A stretch of DNA of 64,000 bases, taken from an uncultured Eubacteriales bacterium. GTDB taxonomy: Bacteria > Bacillota > Clostridia > Oscillospirales > Ruminococcaceae. The stretch spans positions 40,665 to 104,664 of the forward strand of contig OMXI01000003.1 of the NCBI GenBank assembly GCA_900314975.1, given 5' to 3'. The notes below the pieces were generated by a model. The model searched no databases. It had not been told where the DNA came from and was given only the letters and a program-made list of their open reading frames with translations. Position 1 is the first letter of the stretch. Every line of letters begins with the position of its first letter. Positions 1-37,407 of the stretch are shown one piece after another. The translations under genes and the position numbers were made by a program.

Positions 1-1139
1 GCGCACCGAGCAATAAATTCCTGTGGCCAAAGTACCTTACCAAAGTTACCGAGGACGGCACGTTCGGCTACCTGATGGAGCTTAAACCTGCGAGCTTCGA
101 TTCGTTCGTTGATATTCTCAATACATACAAGCTCGTAGTCGACCCGCTTTCAGGCAGAGCCGTAAAGAAAAATGTACGCTTCACAAGCCTTTACGCTATG
201 GTAACGGCTGTGATAAATATAGCAAACGCTTTCAGACAGCTCCACCGTGCAGGTAAGAGCTATCAGGACCTTAACGACGGCGGTTTCTTTATCAATGTTG
301 ATACGGGCGCTGTTCTGGTGTGCGACTGCGATAATATCGCACCTGACGGAAGCAACTTCGGTATCGGCGGTAAGCCGGGCTATATGGCACCCGAAGTCGT
401 AAGAGGTACCACAAAGCCTAACGTTCAGACGGATAAGTATTCGCTCGCTGTCGTGCTGTTCAAGCTGCTGTTCAGAGGCGACCCGATGGAAGGCGAAAAG
501 GTCATCAAGGACATCTGCCTTACAGAGTCGTCAGAGCTTAAACACTACGGTCAGAATGCGGTGTTCGTTTATGACCCGAATGATGCTTCAAACAGACCTG
601 TAAGAGGTATCCACGACAATGTTATCAAGTTCTGGAGACTGTACCCCGAGTATATCAGAGAGGCTTTTACCGAGTCATTTACCACAGGTATCAAAGAGCC
701 TAACAAGCGTATAATCGAGAACGAATGGCAAAAGCTGTTCATCAGACTCAGAAGTGAGATAATCATGTGCGGCTGCGGCAGAACAAACTTTACCTCTATG
801 TTTGTTCCGATAGACGAAAAGACCTATCAGTGTCCGAAGTGCGGTATGAAGTTCGGCTCACTCGGTTTCAGCAACCGCTCGTACAGAATGCCGCTGTATA
901 TCGGCTGCAAGTTCTACAACTGCGAGATCGACCCCGATTCAGACGATTTCCTCACGGTTGCGGGCGAGCTTGTCGAGAATACGCTCAAGCCGGGTGTTCT
1001 TGGTATCAAGAACGTTTCAGGCAGAACATGGCGCGTTAAAATGCCCGACGGCACATTCTACAATATCGAACCCGGTAAGGGCTTCCCTGTATGGGCAGGT
1101 CTTGAAATAGATTTTGGAAATATCAAGGCACAGATTTAA
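1..1139 (+). CDS. Atypical protein kinase of the TerY-P triad, 5' end outside the window
   Basis: The reading frame is open from the window edge (first full codon at base 3), so the N-lobe is cut off; the first visible ATG at 75 is internal. The visible part has a catalytic loop YQDLND (HRD-like Asp, residue 65 counted from that ATG), a DCDN motif in place of DFG, and GYMAPE (APE motif). The Asn normally five residues after the catalytic Asp is Gly. After the kinase comes a CxC...CPKCG zinc ribbon and a small beta-rich C-terminal domain. It is followed 36 bp later by a VWA gene and then a PP2C gene, which is the known TerY-P triad (VWA, PP2C, kinase) linked to Ter-type stress systems. Activity is likely but the divergent motifs leave room for a pseudokinase. 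Confidence 0.85.
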   Translation, partial: APSNKFLWPKYLTKVTEDGTFGYLMELKPASFDSFVDILNTYKLVVDPLSGRAVKKNVRFTSLYAMVTAVINIANAFRQLHRAGKSYQDLNDGGFFINVDTGAVLVCDCDNIAPDGSNFGIGGKPGYMAPEVVRGTTKPNVQTDKYSLAVVLFKLLFRGDPMEGEKVIKDICLTESSELKHYGQNAVFVYDPNDASNRPVRGIHDNVIKFWRLYPEYIREAFTESFTTGIKEPNKRIIENEWQKLFIRLRSEIIMCGCGRTNFTSMFVPIDEKTYQCPKCGMKFGSLGFSNRSYRMPLYIGCKFYNCEIDPDSDDFLTVAGELVENTLKPGVLGIKNVSGRTWRVKMPDGTFYNIEPGKGFPVWAGLEIDFGNIKAQI

Positions 1140-1175
1140 GTCAAACCGAAAGTTTTTATAAAAGGAGTTTTATTT

Positions 1176-1982
1176 ATGAGCAAAAATGATAACATCAAAG
1201 AGAACACACAAGGTGCAAGCGTTCTTGATTTTGATGACGACGATCCCCTCAGCGCCACAAGCGTTTCAAAGAAAAGCTTGGTTATATTCTTCCTGATCGA
1301 TACATCAGGAAGTATGAGAGGTACTAAGATGGGTGAGCTTAATACCGTTATGGAAGAGCTTATCCCGGAGATCCGCCGCGTTGGTGAAGCTGACACTGAC
1401 GTTAAGCTCGCTGTACTTACCTTCTCCACAGATGTTAAGTGGATGTATTCACAGCCTATCAACATCGAGGACTTTGAGTGGACAAGACTTAACGCCGAAG
1501 GCGTTACCAGCATGGGCGCTGCTTTCAAGGAGCTTTCTCTGCGTATGTCAAGAAACAGCTTCCTTAACTCGCCTTCCCTCTCGTTCGCACCTGTTATCTT
1601 CCTTATGACAGACGGCTATCCTTCCGACGACTATCAGGCCGGTCTGAAGGCTCTGCAGTCAAACAGCTGGTACAAGTTCGGTCTTAAGGCTGCACTGGGT
1701 ATCGGTCAGGAAGCTAATGACGATATGCTCGCAGAGTTCACAGGCACAAAGGATACTGTTGTTCACGCTTATTCAGGCGGACAGCTCGCACAGATGATCA
1801 AGGTCGTTGCCGTTACCGCTTCGCAGATAGGCAGTAAGTCTATGACTCTGTCTACAGAGACAGGCGAAGAGATCGAGAACGAGGACGTTTATGCTGCAAA
1901 GCAGAAGCTTCTCGGTCAGCAGATCCAGGAATTTGTCGGCGACCAGAACAACGGAGACGTTCCTTTCGATATCGGTTGGTAA
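1176..1982 (+). CDS. TerY-like VWA domain protein
   Basis: This 268-residue soluble protein is one von Willebrand factor A domain. The metal-ion-dependent adhesion site is intact: DTSGS at residues 42-46, Thr111 in GVTSMGAAF and Asp146 in LMTDG. It resembles TerY, the VWA member of the TerY-P triad, thought to scaffold or present substrates to the kinase and PP2C partners. A clean AAAGGAG site precedes the ATG. It lies 36 bp after the kinase and 42 bp before the phosphatase on the same strand, so co-transcription is expected. No tellurite-resistance TerC/TerD genes are visible, so the usual tellurite label would be an over-reading. The acidic N-terminus (about 30 residues) is likely disordered. 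Confidence 0.88.
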   Translation: MSKNDNIKENTQGASVLDFDDDDPLSATSVSKKSLVIFFLIDTSGSMRGTKMGELNTVMEELIPEIRRVGEADTDVKLAVLTFSTDVKWMYSQPINIEDFEWTRLNAEGVTSMGAAFKELSLRMSRNSFLNSPSLSFAPVIFLMTDGYPSDDYQAGLKALQSNSWYKFGLKAALGIGQEANDDMLAEFTGTKDTVVHAYSGGQLAQMIKVVAVTASQIGSKSMTLSTETGEEIENEDVYAAKQKLLGQQIQEFVGDQNNGDVPFDIGW

Positions 1983-2024
1983 TTTCTCTGAACTCAAATC
2001 TAATCGTAAAGGAGAATAGTCCCA

Positions 2025-2930
2025 ATGTTTAAGGGTTTCAGCAACTCTGTCAGAGGTGCAAGCCATGAGCAGAGCGGTTTGGTATGCCAGGACAGTTCTG
2101 CACATTTCGTGGGCGAATACTACGCTGTTGCGGTAGTTGCCGACGGACACGGCAGTAAAAAACATTTCAGAAGCAATATGGGCTCAAAGTTTGCTGTTGA
2201 GGCTACTCTTGATACTATTGCAAACTTCTACAAGGACGTGGAGAGCTTTGAAAAGACTTTCCCTCTCAACCATAAATTCGTTATAAAGCGCATCAATAAG
2301 CAGATAATCGCTAACTGGAATTCAAAGGTCGCAGAGCATCTGAAGAACAATCCCGTTACTGCGGACGAAAGAAGAAAGTTTTCAGAAGCCGAGTTCGAGC
2401 AGATACCGCCCGAGTCTTACTACGGCACTACACTTATCGCCTGCATCGCGGGCAGAAACTTTACCTTCGGTCTTCAGATAGGCGACGGGAGCCTTATCAC
2501 AGTGTTTGACGACGGCGAGGCTGTCAATCCTATCGAGTATGATGAGTCCGCGCCTGCAAACATCACCGCATCACTTTGCAACGCGGGAGCAGTTTCCTAT
2601 TTCAACGGTTTCTATGTCGATAAGAAAAAGCTTATCGCGGCTTTTGCTTCGACAGACGGTCTTTACACTTCGTTCGGCAGCGACAATGACTTCCTTGATT
2701 ACCACACGATAATTACAAGTCAGCTTGCCGCTAATAACGAGTTTGAAGCAGCAGTACTTAAAAATATCACAAAGCGTTCGCATTTCGGTACGCAGGATGA
2801 CGTTTCACTCTCGTGTATCTACAATCCGCAGCTCGCTGCAGAAAATGTTGATATGCTCAACCGGAAGGTCGAGGAGAATAAGAAAAAGGCTGCCGAAAGA
2901 AAAGCTAATATGCTCAAGAGCAACTTGTGA
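2025..2930 (+). CDS. PP2C-family Ser/Thr protein phosphatase of the TerY-P triad
   Basis: This 301-residue protein carries the metal-binding acidic residues of PP2C phosphatases: VADGHG (Asp40), GDGS (Asp154), STDG (Asp211) and QDD (Asp258/Asp259). The start fits an AAAGGAG site. It should reverse phosphorylation by the kinase encoded two genes upstream; the VWA protein between them is the third triad partner. The last 30 residues are a lysine/glutamate-rich helix. All key residues are present, so I expect an active Mn/Mg-dependent enzyme. The deaminase-fold gene begins 22 bp downstream and is probably in the same transcript. Confidence 0.88.
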   Translation: MFKGFSNSVRGASHEQSGLVCQDSSAHFVGEYYAVAVVADGHGSKKHFRSNMGSKFAVEATLDTIANFYKDVESFEKTFPLNHKFVIKRINKQIIANWNSKVAEHLKNNPVTADERRKFSEAEFEQIPPESYYGTTLIACIAGRNFTFGLQIGDGSLITVFDDGEAVNPIEYDESAPANITASLCNAGAVSYFNGFYVDKKKLIAAFASTDGLYTSFGSDNDFLDYHTIITSQLAANNEFEAAVLKNITKRSHFGTQDDVSLSCIYNPQLAAENVDMLNRKVEENKKKAAERKANMLKSNL

Positions 2931-2952
2931 CGAAAGGATATCGGTGTAAGTT

Positions 2953-4026
2953 ATGGTTATAAATTCGTTTTATAATACGGCTAAAACCTATGCTGAAAAA
3001 ATCAGACAGGAGAAAACTGCTTATTACAAAGAGCCCGGCGCTACCCTGACCCTCGTTATGTCAGAGGAACAGGAGATTTTTTCGGGCGTTACAAGCATAA
3101 AGATCAACGAGGGAAAGGTCGACACTATTCACTCGGAGGCTATCGCTATTATGTCGATGATGGCTGCTAATCAGCCAAAGGCAAAGCAGATGGTAACTAT
3201 CGCGTTCAAAGACCAGAGCGTTGTTAAGCCTTGTGACGAGTGTCTTGACCTGCTTTTAAACGCTGACCCCGATAACAGCAAGTGCGAGATAGCTGTTGCT
3301 CCGACACAGACGGAAACCGCTATCAATCTTAAATCGCAGGCAACCAATATTACCGCTGAATTTCTCGAGAAAGACACAAAGACCGAGGTTGAGAAAGTTC
3401 CCGATCTGGGCGCTCCCGCAGAATTCGTTTCGGGCTTTGAGTTTGATGCAGACAACCCGTTCCTTGCGGGCGACGAGGAAATTCCCGAGGAAGTTAAGAC
3501 TATCGCTTCAGAGGCGGCAAAGCAGCCGCAGACAATTGACCCGGGTATGATGCAGCAGCCGGGCTATGCACAGCAGGTGTATCAGCAGCAGGGCTTTATG
3601 CAGCAGCCGATGGGCTTTATGCAGCAGCAGCCTATGGGCTATATGCCCCAGCAGCCGGGTATGTATCCGCAGCAGCAGGGATTCATACAGCAGCAGCCTG
3701 TGGGATATCCGCAGGGTGCATACGCACAGCAGCCTTCCGCATCAGCTTTTGCGCAGGGTTCTAACAAGTCTCTGTATGTTACAGATGTTATAAGCGCTCC
3801 GCACGACGAGCCTTACGAGCCTGTAAAGGCGGCATCAAAGTACGCAGATGCATCGGCTACCGCTGGCGGAAATGTGCTTAAGCAGCGTCTTGCAAGCCTG
3901 TTTGAAGAAGATGAGGACGACGACGGCGGAAACAATGCTACGATGTCCAAGGAAGAGCTTGAAAATCAGGCAAAGGAAATGAAGAAAAACGCTAAAACCA
4001 ATGCGAAATTCAAGAATAAGTTCTAA
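2953..4026 (+). CDS. Deaminase-fold protein with Gln/Met/Pro-rich tail (paralog A)
   Basis: The first 120 residues look like a cytidine/dCMP-deaminase fold: His60-x-Glu62 in TIHSEA and Pro93-Cys94-x-x-Cys97 in KPCDEC give all three zinc ligands and the catalytic Glu. Residues about 195-275 are a prion-like stretch rich in Gln, Met, Pro, Gly and Tyr built on QQP/GFMQQ repeats. The end has a short LKQRLASLFEEDED segment and a lysine-rich tail. A paralog at 9489-10313 shares the zinc motifs, the low-complexity middle and the LK.RL..LF..EDE end. The gene follows the kinase-VWA-PP2C triad by 22 bp and ends at a strong terminator. Substrate unknown; deamination of a free nucleotide, a nucleotide signal or nothing at all are all possible. 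Confidence 0.7.
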   Translation: MVINSFYNTAKTYAEKIRQEKTAYYKEPGATLTLVMSEEQEIFSGVTSIKINEGKVDTIHSEAIAIMSMMAANQPKAKQMVTIAFKDQSVVKPCDECLDLLLNADPDNSKCEIAVAPTQTETAINLKSQATNITAEFLEKDTKTEVEKVPDLGAPAEFVSGFEFDADNPFLAGDEEIPEEVKTIASEAAKQPQTIDPGMMQQPGYAQQVYQQQGFMQQPMGFMQQQPMGYMPQQPGMYPQQQGFIQQQPVGYPQGAYAQQPSASAFAQGSNKSLYVTDVISAPHDEPYEPVKAASKYADASATAGGNVLKQRLASLFEEDEDDDGGNNATMSKEELENQAKEMKKNAKTNAKFKNKF

Positions 4027-4044
4027 TCAATAAAACTCCGAAGG

Positions 4045-4080
4045 ACTGCGGCAGGACTACCCTGCTGCAGTTTTTATTTT
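4045..4080 (+). terminator. Rho-independent terminator of the kinase-phosphatase operon
   Basis: An 11-bp stem (4045-4055 with 4061-4071, one mismatch, 5-base loop) is followed by a run of T. It ends the plus-strand operon 19 bp after the deaminase-fold gene. Confidence 0.88.
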
Positions 4081-4096
4081 AGGAATATAACAGCAC

Positions 4097-4130
4097 AAAA
4101 AAAGACCTGCCCACATAGGACAGGTCTTTG
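4097..4130 (-). terminator. Terminator of the two-TM protein gene
   Basis: Stem AGACCTG/CAGGTCT (4103-4109 with 4121-4127) followed by a U tract in minus-strand sense. Together with the terminator just before it, it separates two converging transcripts. Confidence 0.8.
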
Positions 4131-4136
4131 GTTTTG

Positions 4137-4658
4137 CTATTTGAATTTGATACCCAGCTTTGATTGTATCATCTGGTACATCTTCATCTTTACGCTGCTC
4201 TTCTGCTTTACGTAAATGAATATTACTACGCCCGCAGCAACAATTGACATCAGGAAACCAAAAAGAATCTTTGATGTAGCGGTGCCCATAAGTACAAATG
4301 CAAGCACCCATACTACAACAACAGCTGCAACAATAAGCGGTAAGCAAAATGACTGGAATGTTCTGCTCGTAACCTTTACATAATGCAGGATATCCTTCTT
4401 GCTGAAGGAATTGTAGTTTCTTGCGATAAATGTGTCAGGTCTTGCCCATGCATAGAAATCAGTCAGCTGCTTGAACTCGATAAGATAATTCTGACCTGTT
4501 GAGGTAACACGGTAATCGAGCTGATAGCCGCCGTTCTTGAGTTTACGAGCATCCATGATATGAACTATCGTTCCTGCTTCTGCCTGCTTTGGAAATGTCT
4601 TTGTTACAAGGAACTTTCCATCGACAGCATCATTGATATTTTTGAGGATATATGCCAT
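4137..4658 (-). CDS. Unknown protein with two C-terminal membrane segments
   Basis: This 173-residue protein is not one I recognise. Residues 1-100 form a soluble, beta-rich part with no clear motif; two hydrophobic segments lie at about 104-124 and 131-151, followed by a short basic tail. The shape suggests a membrane-anchored accessory protein with both ends in the cytoplasm. A GGAAGG site precedes the ATG, and a promoter is visible at 4736-4764. It sits between the deaminase-fold gene and the hydrogenase-like gene, so it may be part of the same signalling locus, but only position supports that. Confidence 0.75.
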   Translation of the reverse strand: MAYILKNINDAVDGKFLVTKTFPKQAEAGTIVHIMDARKLKNGGYQLDYRVTSTGQNYLIEFKQLTDFYAWARPDTFIARNYNSFSKKDILHYVKVTSRTFQSFCLPLIVAAVVVVWVLAFVLMGTATSKILFGFLMSIVAAGVVIFIYVKQKSSVKMKMYQMIQSKLGIKFK

Positions 4659-4735
4659 GTTCTTATCTTCCTTCCTGACAAAAAGCGGTCAATGCTTTAA
4701 TTATTTCTTATAAAAACCATAGGGTGTCTACTATA

Positions 4736-4764
4736 ATTTTAGCACATTTTATCTCAAAATACAA
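4736..4764 (-). promoter_or_regulatory. SigA-type promoter for the two-TM gene
   Basis: In minus-strand sense TTGTAT (4759-4764), a 17-base spacer and TAAAAT (4736-4741). It lies about 80 bases upstream of the start codon. Confidence 0.6.
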
Positions 4765-4836
4765 TAGCTATTTAACGCTTTTTACATTTTGAACAAGCAA
4801 GTCCGTCATTTTGCCAATAAATTAAACATTTTGCAC

Positions 4837-4856
4837 ACGCTTTGTTTTCAAAGCGT
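4837..4856 (-). terminator. Hairpin after the hydrogenase-like gene
   Basis: A perfect 8-bp stem ACGCTTTG/CAAAGCGT with a 4-base loop, starting about 15 bases past the stop codon. No U tract follows, so it may be a weak terminator or an RNA-stabilising hairpin. Confidence 0.5.
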
Positions 4857-4871
4857 TAGTATTTCACAGAT

Positions 4872-6506
4872 TTACGCCTCTTTCAGCGATTCAACCAGCT
4901 CGGATATCTCGCTTATCGAAGCCTTGACAGCCTTTGCGCCCTCGTTAGCCTCGTCGAGATTTTCATCAAACGAAGTCAGCGAATTCATTGTGGTTTCAAG
5001 GATAGTAGCCATCTGCTTTACGCTTGCCTCGTCCATTGAGCTGTTCTTATTACAGAACGCGATGATGTTCTTCAGCAGCTCTGTAACGGTATCCTTCTTC
5101 TCTGCCGTCTTTGCGCTTGCGTCGTCTACTTTGCCGATATTTTCGGCGATAGCCTTTGCCTTTTCAGCGATCTGCTGATTAACCTCGGCATATTTAGCAG
5201 CCTTTTCGTCGTCCTTCTTGACCTCAGTCTGCGTATTGGCAAGGATATGGAAAAAGCAGTTTTCAGGGGTATTTATGCCTCTGTAGATAGCTGTTGCCAT
5301 ATCACGGCAGTTTGCATAACCGCAGTAGCCGCAGTTATAATTTCTTTGCTTATCGGTAGTTTTGCCCATATCGTTGAATACAGGCTCAAGGTCTGCATCT
5401 GTCGGGTTCGGAGAGGTTCTCTTGGGGGTATACGTTCTGATGAAATCATCGATTTCAAGCTCTTCGTCCATTTTTTTGAACGCCTTTTCGTCTCCCCACT
5501 TGACCTTACCTTTAGCCCTTGACCTTGCCTCGTTTTCAAGCGCCTTGAAAGAGTCGATAATATCGAAGCAGTTATTCTTCGGATTAGAGCCGGGACCCAT
5601 ACCGCAGCCGAAATCGCAAGCGAGAATATCAAGCAGTGCGGGGAGCTTATTGCTCGGAGTCTTTGAGAAGCTCGTTATCTGCTCAACAGACCTTTGCTGA
5701 CCTGACGAATAGATGACATTCGGTCCTTGTCTGAAATTGAAGATATTATCGCAAAGTCCGCCCGGTCTTGAATTAAGAGTACCGATATTAGCGATTTTCT
5801 CGTCGTAGTCAAAGTTGAAATCGGAGTAATTCTCGGTCGGGATATTGATATCGTTCTTCTGGAAATACTCCATAAGCTTTTTAAACGTTACGCTGAAATC
5901 AATAAGACCTGTTTCGACGCACTCGTACTTTCTTGCGATACAAGGCGAGAAAACGCATATTCTCTCGTTTCTTCTCAGGTAGTTCTTAACGTAGACAGCT
6001 GCGCACAGTGTTGGGCTGCATACAGGCGGAAGGTTCTGAATAAGTGAGGGGTGATACATTGATATGTAGTTTACCAGCGCACTGCAGGAATTGCTTATCA
6101 TATTCGGGACAGTTCTTGCATCGAGCATACTGAGCATTGCCCACACATAGATATCAGCACCGAAGCCGCCGTCGATAATGGTATAACTTCTCTTTTTGAA
6201 CCATGTGAGTATGCCCTTCCACTGATTAGGATAAGCGAGCTTGATAGCCGGGTCAACGATAATGACCATTCTCTCATCCTTGATCTTGGACATAAATACT
6301 GCTGTGTCATCAACATAGTCTCTCGCTTTATGCGAGCATACCTTAAGGCACTCTCCGCAGCCAATACATTTATCAACGTTAACGGTAGTGATTATCTGTC
6401 CGTTATCGAGCTTTTTAGTGATATTGGCTTCGGGTGCGGGGCAAACTCTGACACACGCATTACAGCCCGTACACCTTTCAGGTCTGACTATGATAATATC
6501 CTTCAT
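4872..6506 (-). CDS. [FeFe]-hydrogenase-like sensory iron-sulfur protein with C-terminal coiled coil
   Basis: This 544-residue protein has two N-terminal [4Fe-4S] motifs (Cys12/15/18/22 and 47/50/53/57), an iron-hydrogenase large-subunit domain (about 80-320), a four-Cys iron-sulfur domain (Cys392/395/400/417) and a C-terminal helical coiled coil (about 425-544). In the H-cluster domain the best alignment keeps all four cubane ligands (Cys141, 189, 297, 301), but the proton-relay Cys is Ser140, the usual MPC is SPC, the cyanide-binding Lys is Arg192 and the Met before the third motif is Leu295. This fits putative sensory (group C/D-like) enzymes rather than a bulk H2 producer. The coiled coil may pass a signal to partner proteins. 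An AGGAG site sits 10 bases before the ATG. HydE, HydF and HydG are not in the window. Confidence 0.82.
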   Translation of the reverse strand: MKDIIIVRPERCTGCNACVRVCPAPEANITKKLDNGQIITTVNVDKCIGCGECLKVCSHKARDYVDDTAVFMSKIKDERMVIIVDPAIKLAYPNQWKGILTWFKKRSYTIIDGGFGADIYVWAMLSMLDARTVPNMISNSCSALVNYISMYHPSLIQNLPPVCSPTLCAAVYVKNYLRRNERICVFSPCIARKYECVETGLIDFSVTFKKLMEYFQKNDINIPTENYSDFNFDYDEKIANIGTLNSRPGGLCDNIFNFRQGPNVIYSSGQQRSVEQITSFSKTPSNKLPALLDILACDFGCGMGPGSNPKNNCFDIIDSFKALENEARSRAKGKVKWGDEKAFKKMDEELEIDDFIRTYTPKRTSPNPTDADLEPVFNDMGKTTDKQRNYNCGYCGYANCRDMATAIYRGINTPENCFFHILANTQTEVKKDDEKAAKYAEVNQQIAEKAKAIAENIGKVDDASAKTAEKKDTVTELLKNIIAFCNKNSSMDEASVKQMATILETTMNSLTSFDENLDEANEGAKAVKASISEISELVESLKEA

Positions 6507-6544
6507 TACAAAACAACTCCTACTAATAACAAATTACTTTTTCC

Positions 6545-7588
6545 TTACTTGAGAGCCTCAGCCATTTTAGCGAGAGCGTCGAGGTCAAGACCGCCTGAAG
6601 ATTTCTCTTCCTTCTTATCAGCCTTCTTGGAATCCTTCTTATCGCTCTTCTTATTGTCGCCTGACAGTGACTGAGCCATATTCATGAGCTTTTCAAGCTC
6701 TTCATTCTTTTCAATATCGTCCTTTGACTTGCCTGTTTCATAAGAATAGTCCGTTTTACCGAGCTTCGGCTCGTCAGGCAGCGACGGAGAGATCTCCTCG
6801 GGGTTCTTGAACTTCGGAACGCCGTCCTTTTTAAGTGAATCCTCTGCGTCCTTGAGCATTGTTTCGCTCTTTGTAAGCTTATCTGTACCATCTGTCTGAA
6901 GTGAAACAAACAGCTCCTTGATTTTTGAAAGGTCTGCGCTTATCTTTTCGATATCGGTAAGCATTACAGCCTTCATATTTGACGATGCAGCCTTCATAGC
7001 CTCGTCGTCGTTAATAGCCTTTGCCTCGATCTCGGCAGCCTGTTTTTCAGCAGCGTAGACGATCTTAGCGGCTTTATTGTTAGCCTCGATTATCATATTA
7101 TCGGTGAGCTTCTGGGCATCGGATTTAAGATCATTAGCCTGCTTTTCGGCTTCTGAACGAACCATATCGGCAGATTTCTGCGCCTCGATAAACACCTTTG
7201 AGAGCATAGAAGCTTCGCCGTTCTCGACCTTATCGAGTCTGTTGTTAGCCTCTTTAAGCTCGCCCTTGAGCTTTTCGATCTCGGCATTGAGACCTGCTAT
7301 CTGCTCGTCCTTATCCTTTGATTCAGCCTTAAGCTCCTCAACGTGTCTTGACAGAGTTTCATTCTCCGCCTGTACCTTGGCGAGTTCCTTTGCGCTTGCA
7401 GCGACGATATTAGCCTTATTATCAGCCTCGTCAAGACCGTCCTTTCTGTTAGCTGCATAAAGCTCACTGTCTCTGACTTGATTTTTCAGGTCATACACCT
7501 GTGTAAAGAGGTCTTCAACGACCTTGTCGGTCTCCGGCTTATCGTAGCCGCCGAATGCTGTGGATTTGATAAAAAGGGAACCTGCCAT
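6545..7588 (-). CDS. DivIVA-like coiled-coil protein
   Basis: This 347-residue acidic protein begins with a FGGYDKPETDKVVEDL segment resembling the membrane-binding N-terminus of DivIVA/GpsB proteins. Long heptad-rich coiled coil runs from about 25 to 250, then comes a Pro/Lys-rich disordered region and a short amphipathic helix (LDLDALAKMAEAL) at the end. It is the first gene of a two-gene unit with the hydrogenase-like gene 38 bp downstream. It starts at a perfect AGGAGG site and is driven by a consensus promoter at 7692-7720. A scaffold or polar-localisation role for the sensor is an inference; only the coiled coil is directly visible. Confidence 0.75.
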   Translation of the reverse strand: MAGSLFIKSTAFGGYDKPETDKVVEDLFTQVYDLKNQVRDSELYAANRKDGLDEADNKANIVAASAKELAKVQAENETLSRHVEELKAESKDKDEQIAGLNAEIEKLKGELKEANNRLDKVENGEASMLSKVFIEAQKSADMVRSEAEKQANDLKSDAQKLTDNMIIEANNKAAKIVYAAEKQAAEIEAKAINDDEAMKAASSNMKAVMLTDIEKISADLSKIKELFVSLQTDGTDKLTKSETMLKDAEDSLKKDGVPKFKNPEEISPSLPDEPKLGKTDYSYETGKSKDDIEKNEELEKLMNMAQSLSGDNKKSDKKDSKKADKKEEKSSGGLDLDALAKMAEALK

Positions 7589-7691
7589 AGTAAATTCCTC
7601 CTATGAAAAAAATTCAGCCCTCAAACGAGCTTTACAAAGCTGCTCTGAAGAGCAGTATAATAGATTTATCACCACTCTTATACATATTAAA

Positions 7692-7720
7692 ATTATACAA
7701 CAAAATTTATAGATTGTCAA
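7692..7720 (-). promoter_or_regulatory. Perfect consensus SigA promoter for the coiled-coil/hydrogenase-like unit
   Basis: In minus-strand sense TTGACA (7715-7720), exactly 17 bases, TATAAT (7692-7697). Such a strong core suggests high basal expression. Confidence 0.85.
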
Positions 7721-7832
7721 TATTATTCTTATGGTATTTCCCAATTTTCACGAATTTTTTATTGAGTTTTTTATGTACTTTGTTTAATAATTAAACCTCT
7801 TTCCAAAAATACAGATTTTACTGTGCAGACGC

Positions 7833-7867
7833 AAAAAAGTCCGCAGACTAATGCAGCCTGCGGACTT
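7833..7867 (-). terminator. Terminator after the dCache-GGDEF gene
   Basis: A 10-bp perfect stem AAGTCCGCAG/CTGCGGACTT (7837-7846 with 7858-7867) followed by a U tract in minus-strand sense. Confidence 0.88.
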
Positions 7868-7890
7868 GATTATTCAGCTATTGGGAGATA

Positions 7891-9489
7891 TCAATAAGCG
7901 TCCATATCAACATATGTTGCGGTGTTATCCATAGAAACGCCGTTCTTATTGATGATATCCTTCAGAGTGATAAGAACTGCAGGCGAGATAGCCGTACCCT
8001 TCTTAACAACTGCTGCTGCGTACTGCAGAGAAACGATATCGTTGCCCAGCTTACGAGGTCTCATCAGCTCGCCGAGTGTTTCGTTAACATCTGCAATGAC
8101 CTGATGTGTATCGCTTGTATCGCTCTTGATGGCTACAACGAACTCGTCAGAACCTGTTCTGTAAACGTTCTGTGCGCCAAACTTCTCCTTGAGGATATCA
8201 GCTGTGGAAGCAAGAGCAGCGTCACCTACGTCATGACCGTAGTTGATGTTTACATCAGAGAATCTGGAGATAGAGTACATAGCGAAGCAGTAAGGTGCGT
8301 TCGGGCAGTCATCTATCTTATTATTGCCGTCGTCGTCCTTACCGAAGTCATCAACGAACTTGATTCTGTTGTTAACGTCTGTGAGGATATCCTTGAGAGC
8401 TGCGATATGCAGGTTCTTGGTGATAGCGGCCTGCTTTCTCTTGGACTGTTCAAGTCTTTGCAGAGTAGCTTCCTGTCTGATAGAAACGATATTGAATATG
8501 ATGATAAGTATGATACATACTGCGCAGAAGATGATCATCTGAAGGTTGATGGATCTTGAGAATTCAAATACATCCTTGGATGGTGTTTCGTTGAACAGGA
8601 TCCAGTGATTATCGCTCATGTAGGAGTAGAATGTTACGTTGTTGCCGTCCTCGAAGTCGCCGTCTTCGTCATCAACGCTGTTCTTAAACTTGTTGGTAAG
8701 GTCAAGAACTTCCTTTTCGCTTGCAGTGGTAGCGACCTTATCGGAATCGTTATGGAAGATGTAGTTGTTATCAAGTGAGTTTACCATGTAGAAGTTTGAG
8801 TTTGATTCAACGTTTTTAAGAGCGTCTACCAGCTTATCTGTGAAGATACCAAGACCAACGAATCCGAGCGGTTCGCCGTTATCGTCCTTAACGATCTTGT
8901 ACATGGAAATGATCTGCTTCTTTGTAGCAGGTGAGATGATGATACCAACGTTGTAAACGCCGTCGCCTGCGTTGATAAGTCCGTTACGCAGAGCCTCAAG
9001 GGGCTTTTCAAATTTTTCCGGGTCTTTCTTTGCATTTCTTGTTGTCATACCCGGAGTGTTGGGGTCGGTATGTGTAAGGCAGTGTGTATCCCAGTCACCT
9101 ACCCAAAGACCCTCGACGCCTGTGATAGTCTTTGAGTACTCCTCGGTATACCTCTGAGCCTTTTCAAGAGCTGAACTTGCAACTATATCCTTGCCTGCTG
9201 CTTTTTTGAGGTCCTCAGCGTTCTCGGCAGCGGAGATGTCCTCTCTGCCCTGAACTGCTCTGAGCAGGTCCTTTACCTCAGGAGATGCACCGAAGCCCAT
9301 AAGGGTATTCTTGGCGTTCTCAACGAAGCTCTGGATCATAGATGCCTGCTGATTGGTTATCGACTTCATGTTGTCGATAGCGTTCTTACGTGTTTTTGAC
9401 GACGTATTGATGACCATTATGATAGTCAGCGCGATGATAGCGATGATTACAATGGACGTCGTGATAATTCGTCTTACGGTTTTAGACAT
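7891..9489 (-). CDS. Membrane dCache sensor with degenerate GGDEF domain
   Basis: This 532-residue protein has TM1 (about 8-28), an extracytoplasmic dCache-type sensing region (about 35-310), TM2 (about 315-337), a short coiled linker and a GGDEF-fold domain (about 362-525). The signature reads TGSDEF (residues 445-450) instead of GGDEF, and the two Asp of the usual DID metal site are Ser406 and Ser408. That loss argues against diguanylate cyclase activity; the domain may bind nucleotide or act by protein contact. The start overlaps the stop of the upstream deaminase-fold gene (TAATG), so the two are translationally coupled. This places the sensor in the signalling locus. Confidence 0.83.
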   Translation of the reverse strand: MSKTVRRIITTSIVIIAIIALTIIMVINTSSKTRKNAIDNMKSITNQQASMIQSFVENAKNTLMGFGASPEVKDLLRAVQGREDISAAENAEDLKKAAGKDIVASSALEKAQRYTEEYSKTITGVEGLWVGDWDTHCLTHTDPNTPGMTTRNAKKDPEKFEKPLEALRNGLINAGDGVYNVGIIISPATKKQIISMYKIVKDDNGEPLGFVGLGIFTDKLVDALKNVESNSNFYMVNSLDNNYIFHNDSDKVATTASEKEVLDLTNKFKNSVDDEDGDFEDGNNVTFYSYMSDNHWILFNETPSKDVFEFSRSINLQMIIFCAVCIILIIIFNIVSIRQEATLQRLEQSKRKQAAITKNLHIAALKDILTDVNNRIKFVDDFGKDDDGNNKIDDCPNAPYCFAMYSISRFSDVNINYGHDVGDAALASTADILKEKFGAQNVYRTGSDEFVVAIKSDTSDTHQVIADVNETLGELMRPRKLGNDIVSLQYAAAVVKKGTAISPAVLITLKDIINKNGVSMDNTATYVDMDAY

Positions 9490-10313
9490 TAATCTTCACT
9501 CTCTTCCTTAAAGAATTTACGTTTTTTCTTCTGCGCAGCTTTTTCCTGTGCCTTTTTAGCCTTCATGTCTTCGATATCCATCTCGTCCTCGACGCTGAAC
9601 AGCTTGTCAAGACGGCCTTTCAGATAGCTTCCGCTGTCTGTATCGCCGCTTTCGAGGTACTGCGATGTAGTTTCGGTATACTGGCTCTTTGTTCCTGCAT
9701 ACTGCGATGCTGCCGGTGCTGCCGGTGCTGCCGGCTGTGCAGGAGTCTGCGGAGGCATAGCATACTGCTGAGGCTGACCGGGCATAGCGTACTGCTGCGC
9801 GGGCATAGGCTGACCCATACCCTGCATCGGCATACCACCGTACGGCATTGCCTGATACTGTCCCATATTGACGGGCATACCATTGTAAACCATACCCTGA
9901 CCCATAGGCATCTGAAGCTGGCTTTGTGACTGTATGTACGCACCCATCTGTGACAAAGCAACATTCTGGGTGGGCAGTAACACAAGTGTATTTGAGTTTG
10001 CAGGATTCATTGCCATTATCCTTGCTGCACAATCTGTACAGGGAAGCATCGGCTGCAAGCTTGCTGCATTGAACACTGCCATCTCCTGAATAGCCGTATC
10101 GTTCTCACGCATCACATTGTTGCACATATCAACTTCTGCATGGAACTGCATAGGCATATTGTTTACCATCGTAATACTGCTCACACCGACATAGATTTTG
10201 CTGCTGGCGGTGAATGCCACGCAGATGGTATCGTTGAAACTCAAAGGCATATTGCTGCTCATTCTCTGAGTCACAACATTTCTGGCTACCTGGCTCATTT
10301 CATCGAATAGCAT
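9489..10313 (-). CDS. Deaminase-fold protein with Met/Gln/Pro-rich tail (paralog B)
   Basis: This 274-residue protein is a paralog of the one at 2953-4026. Residues 1-120 carry His58-Ala-Glu60 and Pro91-Cys92-x-x-Cys95, the zinc and catalytic residues of deaminase-fold enzymes, and share the pattern I(F/Y).GV.SI before them. Residues about 120-215 are low-complexity, rich in Met, Gln, Gly, Pro and Ala. The end has YLKGRLDKLFSVEDE and a lysine-rich tail, matching the ending of paralog A. The ATG start agrees with the paralog's start but has no clear ribosome binding site; a 21-codon leader ORF runs into it. It is coupled by TAATG to the dCache-GGDEF gene. Function unknown. Confidence 0.72.
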   Translation of the reverse strand: MLFDEMSQVARNVVTQRMSSNMPLSFNDTICVAFTASSKIYVGVSSITMVNNMPMQFHAEVDMCNNVMRENDTAIQEMAVFNAASLQPMLPCTDCAARIMAMNPANSNTLVLLPTQNVALSQMGAYIQSQSQLQMPMGQGMVYNGMPVNMGQYQAMPYGGMPMQGMGQPMPAQQYAMPGQPQQYAMPPQTPAQPAAPAAPAASQYAGTKSQYTETTSQYLESGDTDSGSYLKGRLDKLFSVEDEMDIEDMKAKKAQEKAAQKKKRKFFKEESED

Positions 10314-10365
10314 TGAATTTGCGCTGCCATTTTATGACCGTTAAGGCTTTGACCTTTACAATCAA
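10300..10365 (-). CDS. Possible 21-codon leader peptide overlapping the deaminase-fold gene start
   Basis: A TTG codon at 10365 sits 8 bases after a perfect AAAGGAG (10374-10380). The frame runs 21 codons and stops at TGA, 14 bases inside the following gene, which itself lacks a good ribosome binding site. The likely use is translational coupling: ribosomes ending the leader would restart at the nearby ATG. No homology is expected for so short a peptide. It is also possible that the site is used differently and the peptide is incidental. Confidence 0.4.
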   Translation of the reverse strand: MIVKVKALTVIKWQRKFNAIR

Positions 10366-10401
10366 GGCAGCTACTCCTTTCATATAGAATTTTAATATTC
10401 C

Positions 10402-10495
10402 CCGAAAGCTTTCACGCTCAAGCGGTACAGCCGTTTTGCGCTGTTCTTTCGGACGAGAGACAGACTTTTCGCCCTGACGAACGTACTGTCAGGGC
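10402..10495 (-). promoter_or_regulatory. Structured 5' leader RNA, candidate cis-regulatory element
   Basis: In minus-strand sense the leader starts with an 8-bp hairpin GCCCTGAC/GTCAGGGC (10471-10478 with 10488-10495). Next is a closing stem CCGAAAG/CTTTCGG (10402-10408 with 10446-10452) that encloses two small hairpins (ACAGC/GCTGT-like and CGCT/AGCG), giving a three-way-junction layout. It lies between the promoter and the leader ORF. I could not match it to a known riboswitch class by eye. The elements are visible; a regulatory function is inferred. Confidence 0.45.
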
Positions 10496-10526
10496 ATAAT
10501 AACACCAATTTAATTATTCTTCATAC

Positions 10527-10556
10527 ATTGTATCACAAATCTAACACATTTGTCAA
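10527..10556 (-). promoter_or_regulatory. SigA promoter of the deaminase-GGDEF unit
   Basis: TTGACA (10551-10556), 18-base spacer, TACAAT (10527-10532) in minus-strand sense. It implies an untranslated leader of about 200 bases. Confidence 0.7.
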
Positions 10557-10628: not shown

Positions 10629-11243
10629 TTATTCGCGGTATTTTATGCTGATAAATCCTTTGATTATATCAACGCACGTCTGGTAATCCATATGGCTTGT
10701 GTCCAGGCAGATGTTATAATTTCGGGCATCTTCCCAGTTTCTGCCCGTATAGTGCTTATAATAGGCACTTCTGTCCTTATCGGTCTTTTCGATAAGCTTT
10801 CTCGCGTCCTTTTCGTTTCCGCCGTAAGCCTCGATAACGTTATGCACCGCGGTATCGGCATTGCAGAAGATAAACAGCTTGATAACGTCATCCTTATCCT
10901 TGAGCACGAAATCTGCGCATCTGCCGACTATTACGGCTGGCTCTTTTTCCGCAAGTTCTTTGATTATCTTCGCCTGAAAGTTGAACAGGTTCGCATCGCT
11001 TGTGAAATCCTTGCTTGACGGGTCGATGATACCGCCCTTATACACGCCGTTTTTGCGGATGAACGAGCTTTTGACCTTCTCGTCTACCCTGCCGAAGAAC
11101 GCCTCGTTGATGCCGCTGTCCTCGCTGGCGAGCCTGATAAGCTCTTTATCGTAGTATTTGATGCCCAGCTGTTCGGAAAGCATTTTGCCGATAGTTCTTC
11201 CGCCGCTGCCCATACCTCTTGCGATAGTGATTATCCTTGCCAT
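10629..11243 (-). CDS. Cytidylate-kinase-like protein
   Basis: This 204-residue protein begins with a P-loop variant (RGMGSGGRTIG) and matches the cytidylate-kinase-like family found in many Firmicutes, distinct from the housekeeping Cmk. Such proteins bind and probably phosphorylate a nucleotide; the substrate is not established. It lies 10 bp after the last liv gene in the same direction and has its own AGGAGG site, so it is probably the last gene of the liv transcript. Being next to the deaminase-fold genes invites a link in pyrimidine chemistry, but it belongs to a different transcript and I give that little weight. Confidence 0.78.
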   Translation of the reverse strand: MARIITIARGMGSGGRTIGKMLSEQLGIKYYDKELIRLASEDSGINEAFFGRVDEKVKSSFIRKNGVYKGGIIDPSSKDFTSDANLFNFQAKIIKELAEKEPAVIVGRCADFVLKDKDDVIKLFIFCNADTAVHNVIEAYGGNEKDARKLIEKTDKDRSAYYKHYTGRNWEDARNYNICLDTSHMDYQTCVDIIKGFISIKYRE

Positions 11244-11253
11244 GCTTATCCTC

Positions 11254-11964
11254 CTATTCTCCCAAGTAGGCTTTCTTTACCGACTCGTCGTTGATGAGGT
11301 CGCTCGCCTTGCCCGAAAGCACGATTTTCCCCGTTTCAAGAACATACGCTCTGTCAGAAATGGACAGGGCTTTTTTCGCATTCTGCTCGACGAGCAAAAC
11401 GGTAGTTCCCTGCTTTCTTATCGACTCGATAATATTGAATATCTCGCTTACAAGTATCGGCGAAAGTCCCATTGAAGGCTCGTCCATAACGACGATTCGC
11501 GGCTTTGACATAAGCGCTCTGCCCATTGCGAGCATCTGCTGCTCGCCGCCCGAGAGGGTACCCGCTATCTGCGTTTTTCTCTCTTCAAGTCTTGGGAACA
11601 GCTTGTAGACCTTCTCGATGTCCTGCGCTATGCTGTCCTTGTCCTTTCTGGTGAAAGCGCCGAGGCGGATATTGTCAAGCACCGTGAGGTTCTGAAATAT
11701 TCTTCTGCCCTCGGGGACGTGGGCGATACCCATTTTTACTATTTTATGCGCCGCAGTTTTGGTTATGTCCTTTCCGTCAAGGATTATGCTGCCCGATTTT
11801 GCGCTGAGCAGTCCCGTGATAGTATGCAGCGTAGTGGTTTTACCTGCGCCGTTTGCGCCGATAAGAGCGATTACCTCGCCCTCGTTGACCTCGAAAGTTA
11901 TGCCTTTGAGGGCTTTGATAACGCCGTAGTTGACACAAAGGTCTTTTATCTCAAGCATTGCCAT
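11254..11964 (-). CDS. livF: Branched-chain amino-acid ABC transporter ATPase LivF
   Basis: This 236-residue ATPase has Walker A GANGAGKTT, signature LSGGEQQ and Walker B VVMDEPS. It pairs with LivG to drive uptake through LivH/LivM. The open frame extends further upstream, but the ATG at 11964 follows an AAGGAGGG site by 8 bases and fits the family N-terminus. It is 13 bp after livG. Confidence 0.92.
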   Translation of the reverse strand: MAMLEIKDLCVNYGVIKALKGITFEVNEGEVIALIGANGAGKTTTLHTITGLLSAKSGSIILDGKDITKTAAHKIVKMGIAHVPEGRRIFQNLTVLDNIRLGAFTRKDKDSIAQDIEKVYKLFPRLEERKTQIAGTLSGGEQQMLAMGRALMSKPRIVVMDEPSMGLSPILVSEIFNIIESIRKQGTTVLLVEQNAKKALSISDRAYVLETGKIVLSGKASDLINDESVKKAYLGE

Positions 11965-11977
11965 ATTGTCGCCCTCC

Positions 11978-12736
11978 TTATTCTCCAAGATATGCGGTGA
12001 TGACCTCTGGGTTTGAAAGCACCTCTGAGGTCTCGCCCTGGCAAAGCAGCTGACCGAAATTAAGCACCGACAGCCTCTCGCAGATACCTGAAACAAGGCT
12101 CATATCGTGCTCGATAAGCAGCACGGTCATATCAAAGTTATCGCGCACAAAGCGGATAGTGTTCATCAGCTCTGCGGTCTCGTTGGGGTTCATGCCCGCA
12201 GCCGGCTCGTCAAGCAGCAGCAGCTTTGGCTGCGTAGCGAGCGCTCTTGCTATCTCCAGCTTTCTCTGCTTGCCGTATGGCAGACCCGACGCAGGCAGAT
12301 ACGCCTCGCCCTCAAGGTCGAACACGCGCAGCAGCTCAAGTGCCTTTTTGTTCATTTCCTTTTCAGTTCTAAAGAACTTTGGCAGTCTGAAAACGCCCGT
12401 ACCTGCGGAGTATTTATAGTGATTATGCAGACCCACCTTAACGTTGTCGATAACGCTCAGGTTGTGGAAAAGTCTGATATTCTGGAAGGTTCTTGCGATA
12501 CCTGCGTGGTTTATCTGTATGGTAGACTTGCCCGTGATGTCCTCACCGTCGAGGATTATCGAGCCGTCCGTTGGCTTATACACGCCTGTAAGCAGGTTGA
12601 ATATCGTAGTTTTGCCCGCGCCGTTAGGTCCGATAAGACCGTACAGCTCGCCTTTTTCGATTTTTATCGAGAACTCGTCAACGGCACGCAGACCGCCGAA
12701 GGATATACCCAGCTTTTTGACCTCAAGAAGTGCCAT
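11978..12736 (-). CDS. livG: Branched-chain amino-acid ABC transporter ATPase LivG
   Basis: This 252-residue ATPase has Walker A GPNGAGKTT and Walker B LLLLDEPAAGMN, and the longer insert typical of LivG over LivF. An AAAGGAGGG site sits in the end of livM and the start codon is one base after the livM stop, so the two are coupled. Confidence 0.92.
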   Translation of the reverse strand: MALLEVKKLGISFGGLRAVDEFSIKIEKGELYGLIGPNGAGKTTIFNLLTGVYKPTDGSIILDGEDITGKSTIQINHAGIARTFQNIRLFHNLSVIDNVKVGLHNHYKYSAGTGVFRLPKFFRTEKEMNKKALELLRVFDLEGEAYLPASGLPYGKQRKLEIARALATQPKLLLLDEPAAGMNPNETAELMNTIRFVRDNFDMTVLLIEHDMSLVSGICERLSVLNFGQLLCQGETSEVLSNPEVITAYLGE

Positions 12737-12737
12737 A

Positions 12738-13823: not shown

Positions 13824-13859
13824 CTGTATCTGTCCTTTCGGTAATTATTTGTATGTTTA

Positions 13860-14741: not shown

Positions 14742-14823
14742 ACAAAACATCCTTCCATAGTTGTATATATACGTTTTTGCGCCCGTCTGAACACATAAAA
14801 TGTCTCGGACACAATCTTAAATT

Positions 14824-14852
14824 ATTATATCACATTCAAAATCATTTTGCAA
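14824..14852 (-). promoter_or_regulatory. Promoter for livHMGF
   Basis: TTGCAA (14847-14852), 17 bases, TATAAT (14824-14829) in minus-strand sense, between the livJ terminator and livH. It allows the membrane genes to be expressed apart from the binding protein. Confidence 0.65.
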
Positions 14853-14883
14853 CAACAAATGCGCAAAATGCAAGAATTTTTAC

Positions 14884-14918
14884 AAAAAAAGTGAGCTGCC
14901 GCAAACGCAGCAGCCCAC
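14884..14918 (-). terminator. Terminator after livJ
   Basis: A 12-base stem (14891-14902 with 14907-14918, one mismatch) followed by seven U in minus-strand sense. Partial read-through would give more binding protein than permease, a common pattern for ABC importers. Confidence 0.85.
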
Positions 14919-14937
14919 ATCATTGCAAGCTATGATA

Positions 14938-37392: not shown

Positions 37393-37407
37393 CAAAGGGG
37401 TAATGCT

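Follow-up and report, generated by a model that had tools for sequence, protein, structure and literature searches.

A conserved Ruminococcus locus pairs a TerY-P-like kinase-VWA-phosphatase triad with a hydrogenase-like putative receptor

The window analyzed here is a 64,000-nucleotide stretch of contig OMXI01000003.1 (assembly GCA_900314975.1) from an uncultured Ruminococcaceae bacterium with a Ruminococcus-type genome. Its first 10,556 positions hold the following genes and transcription-like signals:

1..1139, plus strand: KIN, 3' part of a gene for a Ser/Thr kinase with a C-terminal zinc ribbon (Pkinase, 34.8 bits; the gene starts some 200 bases ahead of the window edge, L002:12457-13803)
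1176..1982, plus strand: VWA, a TerY-like protein (VWA, 38.7 bits)
2025..2930, plus strand: PP2C-type phosphatase (PP2C_2, 111.8 bits)
2953..4026, plus strand: DEA1, with a cytidine-deaminase-fold domain, an NPF-containing motif, a Q/P/G/M/Y-rich tail and a basic C terminus
4101..4129, minus strand: terminator-like hairpin after TM (12-pair stem, T run)
4137..4658, minus strand: TM, a small protein with two likely transmembrane helices (judged by eye)
4872..6506, minus strand: HYD, an [FeFe]-hydrogenase-like protein with two N-terminal and one C-terminal 4Fe-4S motifs and a short coiled coil (Fe_hyd_lg_C, 74.0 bits)
6545..7588, minus strand: COIL, a DivIVA-like coiled-coil protein encoded directly upstream of HYD (DivIVA, 26.4 bits against a cut-off of 28)
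7692..7720, minus strand: promoter-like site TTGACA-17-TATAAT before COIL-HYD (12/12 consensus positions; consensus match only)
7837..7867, minus strand: terminator-like hairpin (14-pair stem, T run) that follows the GGDEF gene, with the DEA2-GGDEF pair on one side and COIL-HYD on the other
7891..9489, minus strand: dCache-GGDEF membrane protein with RTGSDEF instead of GGDEF (GGDEF, 46.1 bits; dCache_1, 31.4 bits)
9489..10313, minus strand: DEA2, a second deaminase-fold protein with HAE/PCTDC motifs and a tail rich in Q, P and M; its gene overlaps the GGDEF gene start
10527..10556, minus strand: promoter-like site TTGACA-18-TACAAT before DEA2 (11/12 consensus positions; consensus match only)

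A further member, an LRR/zinc-ribbon gene, lies just beyond the window edge. We collected 80 related loci, with R. albus and R. flavefaciens among the species named in their titles, and took the 55 with full flanks as the basis of the gene-presence counts. LRR, KIN, VWA, PP2C and DEA1 each occur in 55/55, TM in 52/55, and HYD with COIL, at about 10 kb or less from the kinase, in 49/55. The VWA, PP2C and kinase genes are adjacent in all 55, and in 59 of the 60 loci that have both, COIL immediately precedes HYD and shares its strand. KIN, VWA, PP2C, DEA1, TM, HYD, COIL and LRR thus form one conserved locus. The first-pass annotation had read nine neighboring genes as a single signaling locus that links a TerY-P triad with a hydrogenase-like sensor protein. 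The neighborhood check proposed with it, the recurrence of at least five of the nine genes within 15 kb, came out in its favor. Linkage supports this union and retains the triad, DEA1, TM, HYD and COIL, but not the dCache-GGDEF/DEA2 pair (4/55). The homologs are clustered rather than scattered in relatives: HYD is present in 20/29 Ruminococcus genomes, and 8 of the 9 genomes lacking it also lack the kinase.

The locus stays compact while its layout varies. HYD lies upstream of the kinase on the opposite strand in 28 loci, upstream on the same strand in 18, downstream on the opposite strand in 2 (3 including the window) and downstream on the same strand in 1. Its side or strand relative to the kinase switched at least five times on a 56-row KIN+VWA+PP2C tree built by a quick method, and the whole gene set nevertheless remains within at most 15.6 kb. 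Three extra families recur in 47/55, 43/55 and 41/55 loci, the first being another membrane GGDEF protein and the last a sugar-binding lipoprotein; the next family reaches 9/55, which marks a sharp boundary. These counts cover genes of at least 90 residues. It is very improbable, in our judgment, that general gene-order conservation in the genus merely keeps two or more unrelated units side by side. The promoter-like and terminator-like sites, which suggest four transcription units in the window, and the separation of the DEA2-GGDEF pair in most loci would fit such a view; it is contradicted by the turnover of other neighbors, by HYD and COIL switching sides yet staying close, and by the joint absence of kinase and HYD from 8/29 genomes. 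HYD seems dispensable for the locus, as HYD-COIL is not nearby in 6/55 loci and a 100% complete genome of another genus (G237) carries LRR, KIN, VWA, PP2C, GGDEF, DEA1 and TM as a set but gave no HYD match at 1e-10. The triad was found near HYD homologs in 0/20 class-level stretches, so that no case beyond Ruminococcus was seen.

The dCache-GGDEF/DEA2 pair was ruled out as a core component. It had been proposed as part of the locus, and is better described as an occasional neighbor with promoter-like and terminator-like sites of its own; across the region, such sites number 25 against 16.2 expected (promoter-like) and 14 against 10.6 (terminator-like). In three fetched relatives (L099-L101) the pair lies elsewhere in the genome, and most of the 55 loci carry the lipoprotein and the other membrane GGDEF protein in its place. 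Another lineage (L179, L182 and L183) likewise has the pair next to the locus, and a looser link is possible. The window dCache-GGDEF protein has GSDEF in place of GG(D/E)EF, a motif kept in the eight proteins aligned; the recurrent GGDEF family has TGNEF in two long members and GGDEF in the R. albus KH2T6 member.

Motifs of the triad are preserved. K46, D159, D178 and D180 of KIN are invariant among 21 aligned homologs, as are the zinc-ribbon cysteines C326, C328, C347 and C350 (21/21), which Pfam zinc-finger models match weakly. The VWA metal-site motifs (DTSGS...GVTSMG...TDG) and the PP2C motifs (ADGHG, GDG, STDGL and DD) are each kept in 19/19. TM matches no Pfam family above cut-off, and the rows listed in a structure comparison of the LRR protein were filled by its LRR part, none of them spanning the N-terminal helical domain (model residues 34-127). 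In the accessible text of its description, the TerY-P triad comprises a TerY-like VWA protein, a PP2C phosphatase and a Ser/Thr kinase with a zinc ribbon (PMC11090510). Adjacent genes, intact motifs and the kinase zinc ribbon bear out the assignment of these genes to a TerY-P-like triad. The same architectural match, together with the association of TerY-P triads with restriction systems and the defensive action of related modules, could point to an anti-phage or general stress (Ter-type) module triggered by HYD and COIL. We find this improbable. PADLOC kinase models match KIN weakly (best E, 5.7e-8), and the scan of ten proteins gave no other noteworthy match; the annotated extra families, the sugar-binding lipoprotein and the GGDEF protein, are more typical of metabolism or lifestyle signaling; and the triad tree keeps R. 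albus rows, and most R. flavefaciens rows, together, unlike an often-transferred module. A defense system was rejected, PADLOC matches being weak throughout, with the kinase as the best.

Across an alignment of 75 distinct Ruminococcus HYDs, 16 iron-sulfur cysteines are invariant, and two N-terminal 4Fe-4S motifs, four H-cluster cysteines and a C-terminal Cx2Cx4Cx16C (C392-C395-C400-C417 in the window HYD) are present in 75/75. The P231 position (75/75) and an extra cysteine, Cys168, are also invariant. The proton-relay C299 position is Cys in 0/75 (Pro in 50, Gln in 17, Ser in 7 and His in 1), a loss not common to the outgroup of group C-type rows, 5/6 of which have Cys. The M353 position holds Ser (59/75) or Thr (16/75), and M497 holds Leu (72/75) or Met (3/75). 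Pfam gave no PAS match and no MCPsignal match in the window HYD, and the MCP signaling tip was found by pattern in 0/25 Ruminococcus HYDs. HYD clusters with 21 class-level homologs, of which 16 have the MCP tip by pattern and 2 more by eye, and 3 are histidine kinases. By sequence, HYD nests among hydrogenase-chemoreceptor (MCP) fusions, having kept all iron-sulfur cysteines and lost the chemoreceptor tip, with a long-branch caution for the HYD tree that includes distant group C rows and, for two rows, for the class-level tree. The earlier reading of HYD as a sensory hydrogenase-like protein is supported, with the correction that HYD is nearer to MCP fusions than to the HydS type of R. albus. 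A second HYD copy lies away from the locus in the window genome.

The ligand of HYD allows more than one reading. Near the diiron site, the K358 position is Lys in 46/75 HYDs and another residue in 29/75, with Arg in the window HYD, and other pocket positions also differ from group A enzymes. Nar1/NARF-type relatives hold only 4Fe-4S clusters. Since K358 is not always Lys, HYD may likewise hold only 4Fe-4S clusters and never sense H2, acting as an iron-sulfur sensor of redox, oxygen or iron status in an otherwise unchanged circuit; we deem this unlikely, though a serious contender. The window genome encodes HydF (561 bits), a protein with a part in H-cluster assembly; this speaks for a diiron site, although the canonical hydrogenase encoded there would also need HydF. 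A TM1266-like regulator of hydrogenase systems, found between HYD and LRR in 7/40 of the first stretches (4/80 loci overall in a separate scan), points the same way, as do the invariant P231 position and H-cluster ligands. Finally, Ser and Leu at M353/M497 also occur in TamHydS, which, in the accessible part of its report, still turns over H2 when given a synthetic diiron site (PMC8163306).

DEA1 raises the question of output. The window protein carries the zinc motifs HSE/PCDEC, and its domain is close to blasticidin S and cytidine deaminases by fold comparison, which alone matched; a PDB sequence search with the deaminase-domain alignment and DEA2 as queries returned no deaminase. Among 86 DEA1 homologs, 8 have both zinc motifs, 4 have PCxxC alone and 74 have neither, by a pattern without the CxE form (found once by eye, in homolog L180). 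In DEA2, both motifs are present by pattern in 9/10 homologs, and the tenth (L070), with a longer called start, has PCSDC by eye. An LKxRLxxL tail motif appeared common to DEA1 and DEA2 by eye; the pattern, probably too strict, matched 1/96 proteins. As a rule, DEA1 thus looks like a pseudo-deaminase, usually with a repetitive tail. With the gene in 55/55 loci and 74/86 homologs lacking both motifs, its conserved role is probably not catalysis. The proposal of deaminase-fold effectors therefore survives in its fold and not, as a general role, in its catalysis, and deaminase effectors were ruled out in that role. In the window lineage, DEA1 and DEA2 might still be active as deaminases, producing or removing a nucleoside-like signal under phosphorylation control, with zinc-less homologs having decayed. 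The HSE/PCDEC and HAE/PCTDC motifs, the fold and the occurrence of zinc motifs in three separate places on the DEA1 tree would agree with this; the persistence of the gene in every full-flank locus despite the widespread loss of both motifs, and the four further homologs with PCxxC only, leave it little likelihood.

Conserved linkage, folds, kept and lost motifs and kinship with MCP-fused hydrogenases are shown by sequence and are the ground for a model in which the locus is one signaling unit, with HYD as receptor input, a kinase/PP2C balance and DEA1 as the main target; we give it a little less than an even chance. What HYD binds, which proteins touch each other, which way the signal runs and the choice of DEA1 as target are all inferred. 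The HYD H-domain, with an H-cluster-type site, would read H2 or the ferredoxin pool's redox state, with slow turnover expected from the loss of the proton-relay cysteine. In ancestral forms of HYD, a chemoreceptor (MCP) hairpin presumably received the signal; the Ruminococcus protein has lost the hairpin tip, and the leftover coiled coil might pass the signal to COIL, probably at the membrane. COIL-HYD would then tune the balance between kinase and PP2C phosphatase; the metal-site VWA protein would serve as adaptor and the zinc-ribbon/LRR protein as a docking part. The main target would be DEA1, a deaminase-fold domain mostly borne on a long repetitive tail, and a likely binding module because its zinc motifs are usually absent. 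TM may anchor the assembly. An outside signal could enter via membrane GGDEF proteins, through the sugar-binding lipoprotein in most species and the dCache domain in the window species. Counting against this model are the six loci and the G237 set that lack HYD, the variable K358 position, the second HYD copy away from the locus, the absence of cases among the class-level stretches, the scarcity of the TM1266-like regulator (4/80 loci) and the signs of four transcription units. A bolder and rather doubtful extension is that a hydrogen chemoreceptor was uncoupled from chemotaxis in Ruminococcus and, in rebuilt form, now feeds a Ser/Thr phosphorylation circuit of eukaryote-like type. As output, phosphorylation would control how a pseudo-deaminase with a prion-like repetitive tail assembles, and a DivIVA-like protein would position it; this would be a new type of H2-responsive cell-organizing system in fiber-degrading gut bacteria.

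In the rumen, H2 pressure governs fermentation, cross-feeding and the formation of methane, and the main fiber degraders there include Ruminococcus species. The presence of a HYD relative beside a kinase-phosphatase set in many rumen and gut Ruminococcus suggests a way to couple H2 or redox state to protein phosphorylation. A literature search covering titles, abstract starts and passages, with most subscription papers outside its scope, found no description of a hydrogenase-type sensor united with a TerY-P-like set, and within that scope the claim that the combination is undescribed holds. In R. albus, H2 sensing has been tentatively assigned, in the accessible text, to one PAS-type HydS operon (PMC6776011). 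The locus would add a second, quite different candidate in R. albus, R. flavefaciens and others, with a testable partner set. If the model is true, the locus would also show clearly how a chemoreceptor can be reconnected to a kinase-phosphatase pathway and how a deaminase fold can become a scaffold.

Compared with known systems, the locus shares with the TerY-P triad three adjacent genes with intact motifs and a kinase ending in a zinc ribbon. It differs in its recurring partners, which are the hydrogenase-type HYD, the DivIVA-like COIL, the pseudo-deaminase DEA1, the LRR/zinc-ribbon protein and TM, and no Ter/tellurite, restriction or DNA-processing genes were recognized among the core genes and the minority of non-core families that were annotated. 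Unlike tetrameric cytidine deaminases and blasticidin S deaminase, most DEA1 homologs have lost the zinc motifs and most have a long repetitive tail. HydDB group C2, listed in its group table as 'chemotactic (putative)' [FeFe]-hydrogenases (PMC5037454, consulted in part), resembles HYD in that the nearest relatives of HYD are hydrogenase-MCP fusions with the same cysteines and pocket changes, as judged by tree and motifs rather than by the HydDB classifier; however, the MCP tip is missing, by pattern, from 25/25 Ruminococcus proteins, and TerY-P-type genes adjoin instead. The accessible description of TamHydS (group D, M2e) reports M353 to Ser, M497 to Leu, loss of C299, no PAS and a C-terminal Cx2Cx4Cx16C (PMC8163306). 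Against that description, HYD agrees in all these features, but it lacks an adjacent group A hydrogenase gene, has the extra Cys168 and a coiled-coil tail, and does not always keep K358. The R. albus HydS is a group C protein with PAS, encoded with a ferredoxin-only hydrogenase and a phosphatase, for which the accessible text proposes putative H2 sensing tied to a Ser/Thr phosphatase (PMC6776011). HYD comes from the same genus and would share that link, but it has no PAS match, whereas HydS and HydDB C3 have PAS and lie beside a SpoIIE-type phosphatase and HydA; the phosphatase here is of the PP2C_2 type, and the tree separates HYD from the HydS type. Genome G022 encodes the two types apart, with HYD at C5:646440 and a HydS-like gene at C1:143844 that has another hydrogenase gene some 3 kb away. 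In the alignment, the HydS-like protein has Gly and Ser at the M353 and M497 positions, respectively, and Cys at C299.

Gene calls and Pfam placed in the window all nine genes (1..10556) that the first-pass annotation had proposed as one signaling locus. The plus-strand run begins one gene upstream of the window, which is a portion of contig C57 of a 2.9-Mb genome. Promoter-like and terminator-like sites suggest four transcription units.

Unit 1, plus strand: LRR (zinc ribbon plus BspA-type LRR), KIN (zinc-ribbon Ser/Thr kinase, starting roughly 200 bases ahead of the window), VWA (TerY-like), PP2C (phosphatase), DEA1 (deaminase fold)
Unit 2, minus strand: DEA2 (deaminase fold), dCache-GGDEF; promoter-like site 10556-10527, terminator-like site 7867-7837
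Unit 3, minus strand: COIL (DivIVA-like coiled coil), HYD ([FeFe]-hydrogenase-like); promoter-like TTGACA-17-TATAAT, 7720-7692
Unit 4, minus strand: TM (two-TM protein)

These sites are consensus matches alone, and the region totals 25 promoter-like sites versus 16.2 expected and 14 terminator-like sites versus 10.6 expected. Catalytic and metal motifs of KIN, VWA and PP2C are retained. Genes downstream of 10629 look unrelated to the locus. A cytidylate-kinase-like gene and then an apparent branched-chain amino-acid ABC transporter run occupy 10629-16122 (minus strand); in two relatives (L100 and L101), too, a cytidylate-kinase-like gene is found no more than about 5 kb from DEA2-GGDEF. Farther along on the plus strand, 26415-28247 encodes a 610-residue protein matching no Pfam family above cut-off, with a J-domain-like start (by eye), a proline-rich middle and a C-terminal hydrophobic helix, and 36541-38193, shortly ahead of the tmRNA gene (38904-39261), encodes two similar tandem proteins judged by eye to be secreted or anchored in the membrane.

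Searching 84,980 species genomes with an alignment of 21 KIN sequences yielded 264 relatives, of which the best 80 (79-98% identity) were taken; picked by kinase similarity, these loci are uninformative on the remaining 184. They are labeled Ruminococcus, Oscillospiraceae or uncultured Clostridia, R. albus and R. flavefaciens strains among them. VWA, PP2C, LRR and DEA1 each occur in all 55 loci with full flanks (at least 8.5 kb either side of the kinase), TM in 52, and HYD and COIL in 49 each; across all 80, many ended by contig ends, HYD and COIL each occur in 60. In 59 of the 60 loci with both genes, COIL and HYD share a strand and COIL comes immediately before HYD. The proposed neighborhood was borne out: at least five of the nine gene types, with a GGDEF gene from any locus family accepted, fall within 15 kb in 54 of the 55 full-flank loci, and at least seven in 47. 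Where HYD is present (49 loci), the span of KIN, VWA, PP2C, DEA1, HYD and COIL has a median of 12,075 bases and a maximum of 15,550.

Three further families (genes under 90 residues excluded) recur at these 55 loci, namely membrane GGDEF proteins (median 402 residues; 47 loci), an unnamed 189-residue family (43) and a Peripla_BP_4 sugar-binding-type lipoprotein (41); the next commonest reaches just 9. GGDEF members are of two sorts, long ones adjoining the lipoprotein gene and others between PP2C and DEA1 (9/55). Genes of about 190 residues, e.g., L147:5274-5831 and those at 42 other loci, often lie just upstream of COIL, and the two members scanned had no Pfam match. All three families are missing from the window's locus. 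The 189-residue family is encoded on another contig of its genome (G000:C43:62277-62825, 67% identity); the lipoprotein query found no match there at 1e-5, which, run with no positive control, shows little.

A second LRR-KIN-DEA1-like set, lacking VWA and PP2C, occurs in four genomes (L088:2356-8772, L089:4878-11360, L090:8503-14892, L091:9066-15480), alongside divergent genes for a Peripla_BP_4-type and a membrane GGDEF protein (Pfam on the L089 copies). This arrangement supports an association of outside-ligand proteins with LRR, KIN and DEA1. Some genomes have a MoxR-type ATPase and a DUF2201 VWA-like protein adjoining LRR. An extra large BspA-type LRR protein was seen upstream of LRR in L082, L084, L085, L116 and L117, between HYD and LRR where the contig carries HYD (that of L084 does not); in L085 a MoxR-type AAA ATPase and a DUF2201 VWA-like protein (Pfam) sit beside it, families shared by L082 and L084. 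In 7 of 40 first stretches (L072:8166-8408 and six others), HYD and LRR have between them a gene for a TM1266-like "iron-only hydrogenase system regulator"; it appears in just 4 of the 80 loci, one of them without HYD (L188).

Conserved gene order by itself would not account for the linkage of HYD to the locus. In the 55 full-flank loci HYD takes four placements: upstream of the kinase on the opposite strand (28) or on the kinase strand (18), and downstream of it on the opposite strand (2; 3 counting the window) or on the kinase strand (1); the other 6 have no HYD. Among loci having HYD, its placement changed at least five times on a 56-row tree (a quick method, with several long branches). 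HYD occurs in 20 of 29 genus genomes, on one stretch with the kinase or DEA1 in 19; in G018 it is on a different contig from the other locus genes. Eight of the nine genus genomes without HYD also lack the kinase, one of them (G003) giving only a weak 43-bit hydrogenase match; the ninth, with the kinase present, is 76% complete (G019). Against linkage counts G237, a 100% complete genome of another genus, where LRR-KIN-VWA-PP2C-GGDEF-DEA1-TM is present but no HYD match was found at 1e-10. Across the order, 5 of 245 genomes, the window's among them, have the kinase at 1e-20. In G235, G134, G127 and at another G237 locus, the triad occurs without HYD, COIL, DEA1 and TM; an LRR-type match is present somewhere in three of the four stretches.

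Sixteen HYD cysteines, for two ferredoxin-type clusters, the four H-cluster ligands and a C-terminal cluster, are invariant in 75 distinct genus proteins. By alignment to CpI, the proton-relay position C299 is Pro in 50, Gln in 17, Ser in 7 and His in 1; M353 is Ser in 59 and Thr in 16, M497 is Leu in 72 and Met in 3, and K358 is Lys in only 46. Cys168, common in MCP (chemoreceptor) fusions and Ala in group C-type rows, is present in all 75; position 163 is His in 66 and Cys in the window's HYD, where C163/C168 might form an extra metal or redox site. The window's genome encodes HydF, a canonical hydrogenase and a second HYD copy (G000:C41:6280-7932; L062:6247-8034) 43% identical to the first. 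In the tree this copy clusters with locus-type HYD of R. albus and R. flavefaciens, not with the window's own, implying a duplicated, partly relocated putative receptor in this lineage.

At class level, the HYD profile matched 30 of 391 genomes at 1e-30, the window's counted. Outside the window's genome, 22 places reached 1e-90 or better, and 21 of them were taken, in 20 stretches: 16 proteins have an MCP tip recognized by pattern, another 2 (L199 and L212) one recognized by eye, and 3 a histidine-kinase end; Pfam on eight found MCPsignal in six and HisKA/HATPase in two. The MCP tip pattern was found in none of 25 genus HYD proteins, and the 20 stretches, some being short contigs, contain neither the triad nor COIL. 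Ten genus HYDs form one clade (support 100/99) nested among the class-level homologs, its closest join (also 100/99) being two MCP fusions, one from the same family. The simplest history would make Ruminococcus HYD a descendant of an MCP-linked receptor that lost its MCP output, a direction that depends on the chosen outgroup.

The locus genes very likely act together, and HYD is likely, with slightly less assurance, a receptor. Whether its cue would be H2 or another redox signal is evenly poised, and the balance tilts modestly toward DEA1 as scaffold and kinase target. The joint reading, with HYD as an H2/redox receptor setting the kinase-phosphatase balance and DEA1 as main target, is tentative, at a little under an even chance.

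Precedents exist for the triad, for sensory hydrogenases and for hydrogenases linked to MCPs or kinases; no description of a union of triad and sensory hydrogenase was found in the literature searched. The locus resembles TerY-P systems in two features, triad adjacency and the kinase zinc ribbon, and HYD resembles sensory hydrogenases in its cysteines. Judged by features, HYD falls outside HydDB group C2, the MCP-linked group as named in the accessible text of PMC5037454, since it has no MCP link, and outside C3, since it has no PAS. Its Ser/Leu pair (M353/M497) and Cx2Cx4Cx16C tail match the group D enzyme TamHydS as described in the accessible part of PMC8163306. The sensory operon published for R. 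albus has PAS and a phosphatase in the portion of PMC6776011 available. A HydS-like protein of R. albus is encoded by a gene separate from HYD, at a separate place. That protein has Cys at C299, as do 5 of 6 group C-type rows overall in the alignments, so the loss of this residue distinguishes HYD from them.
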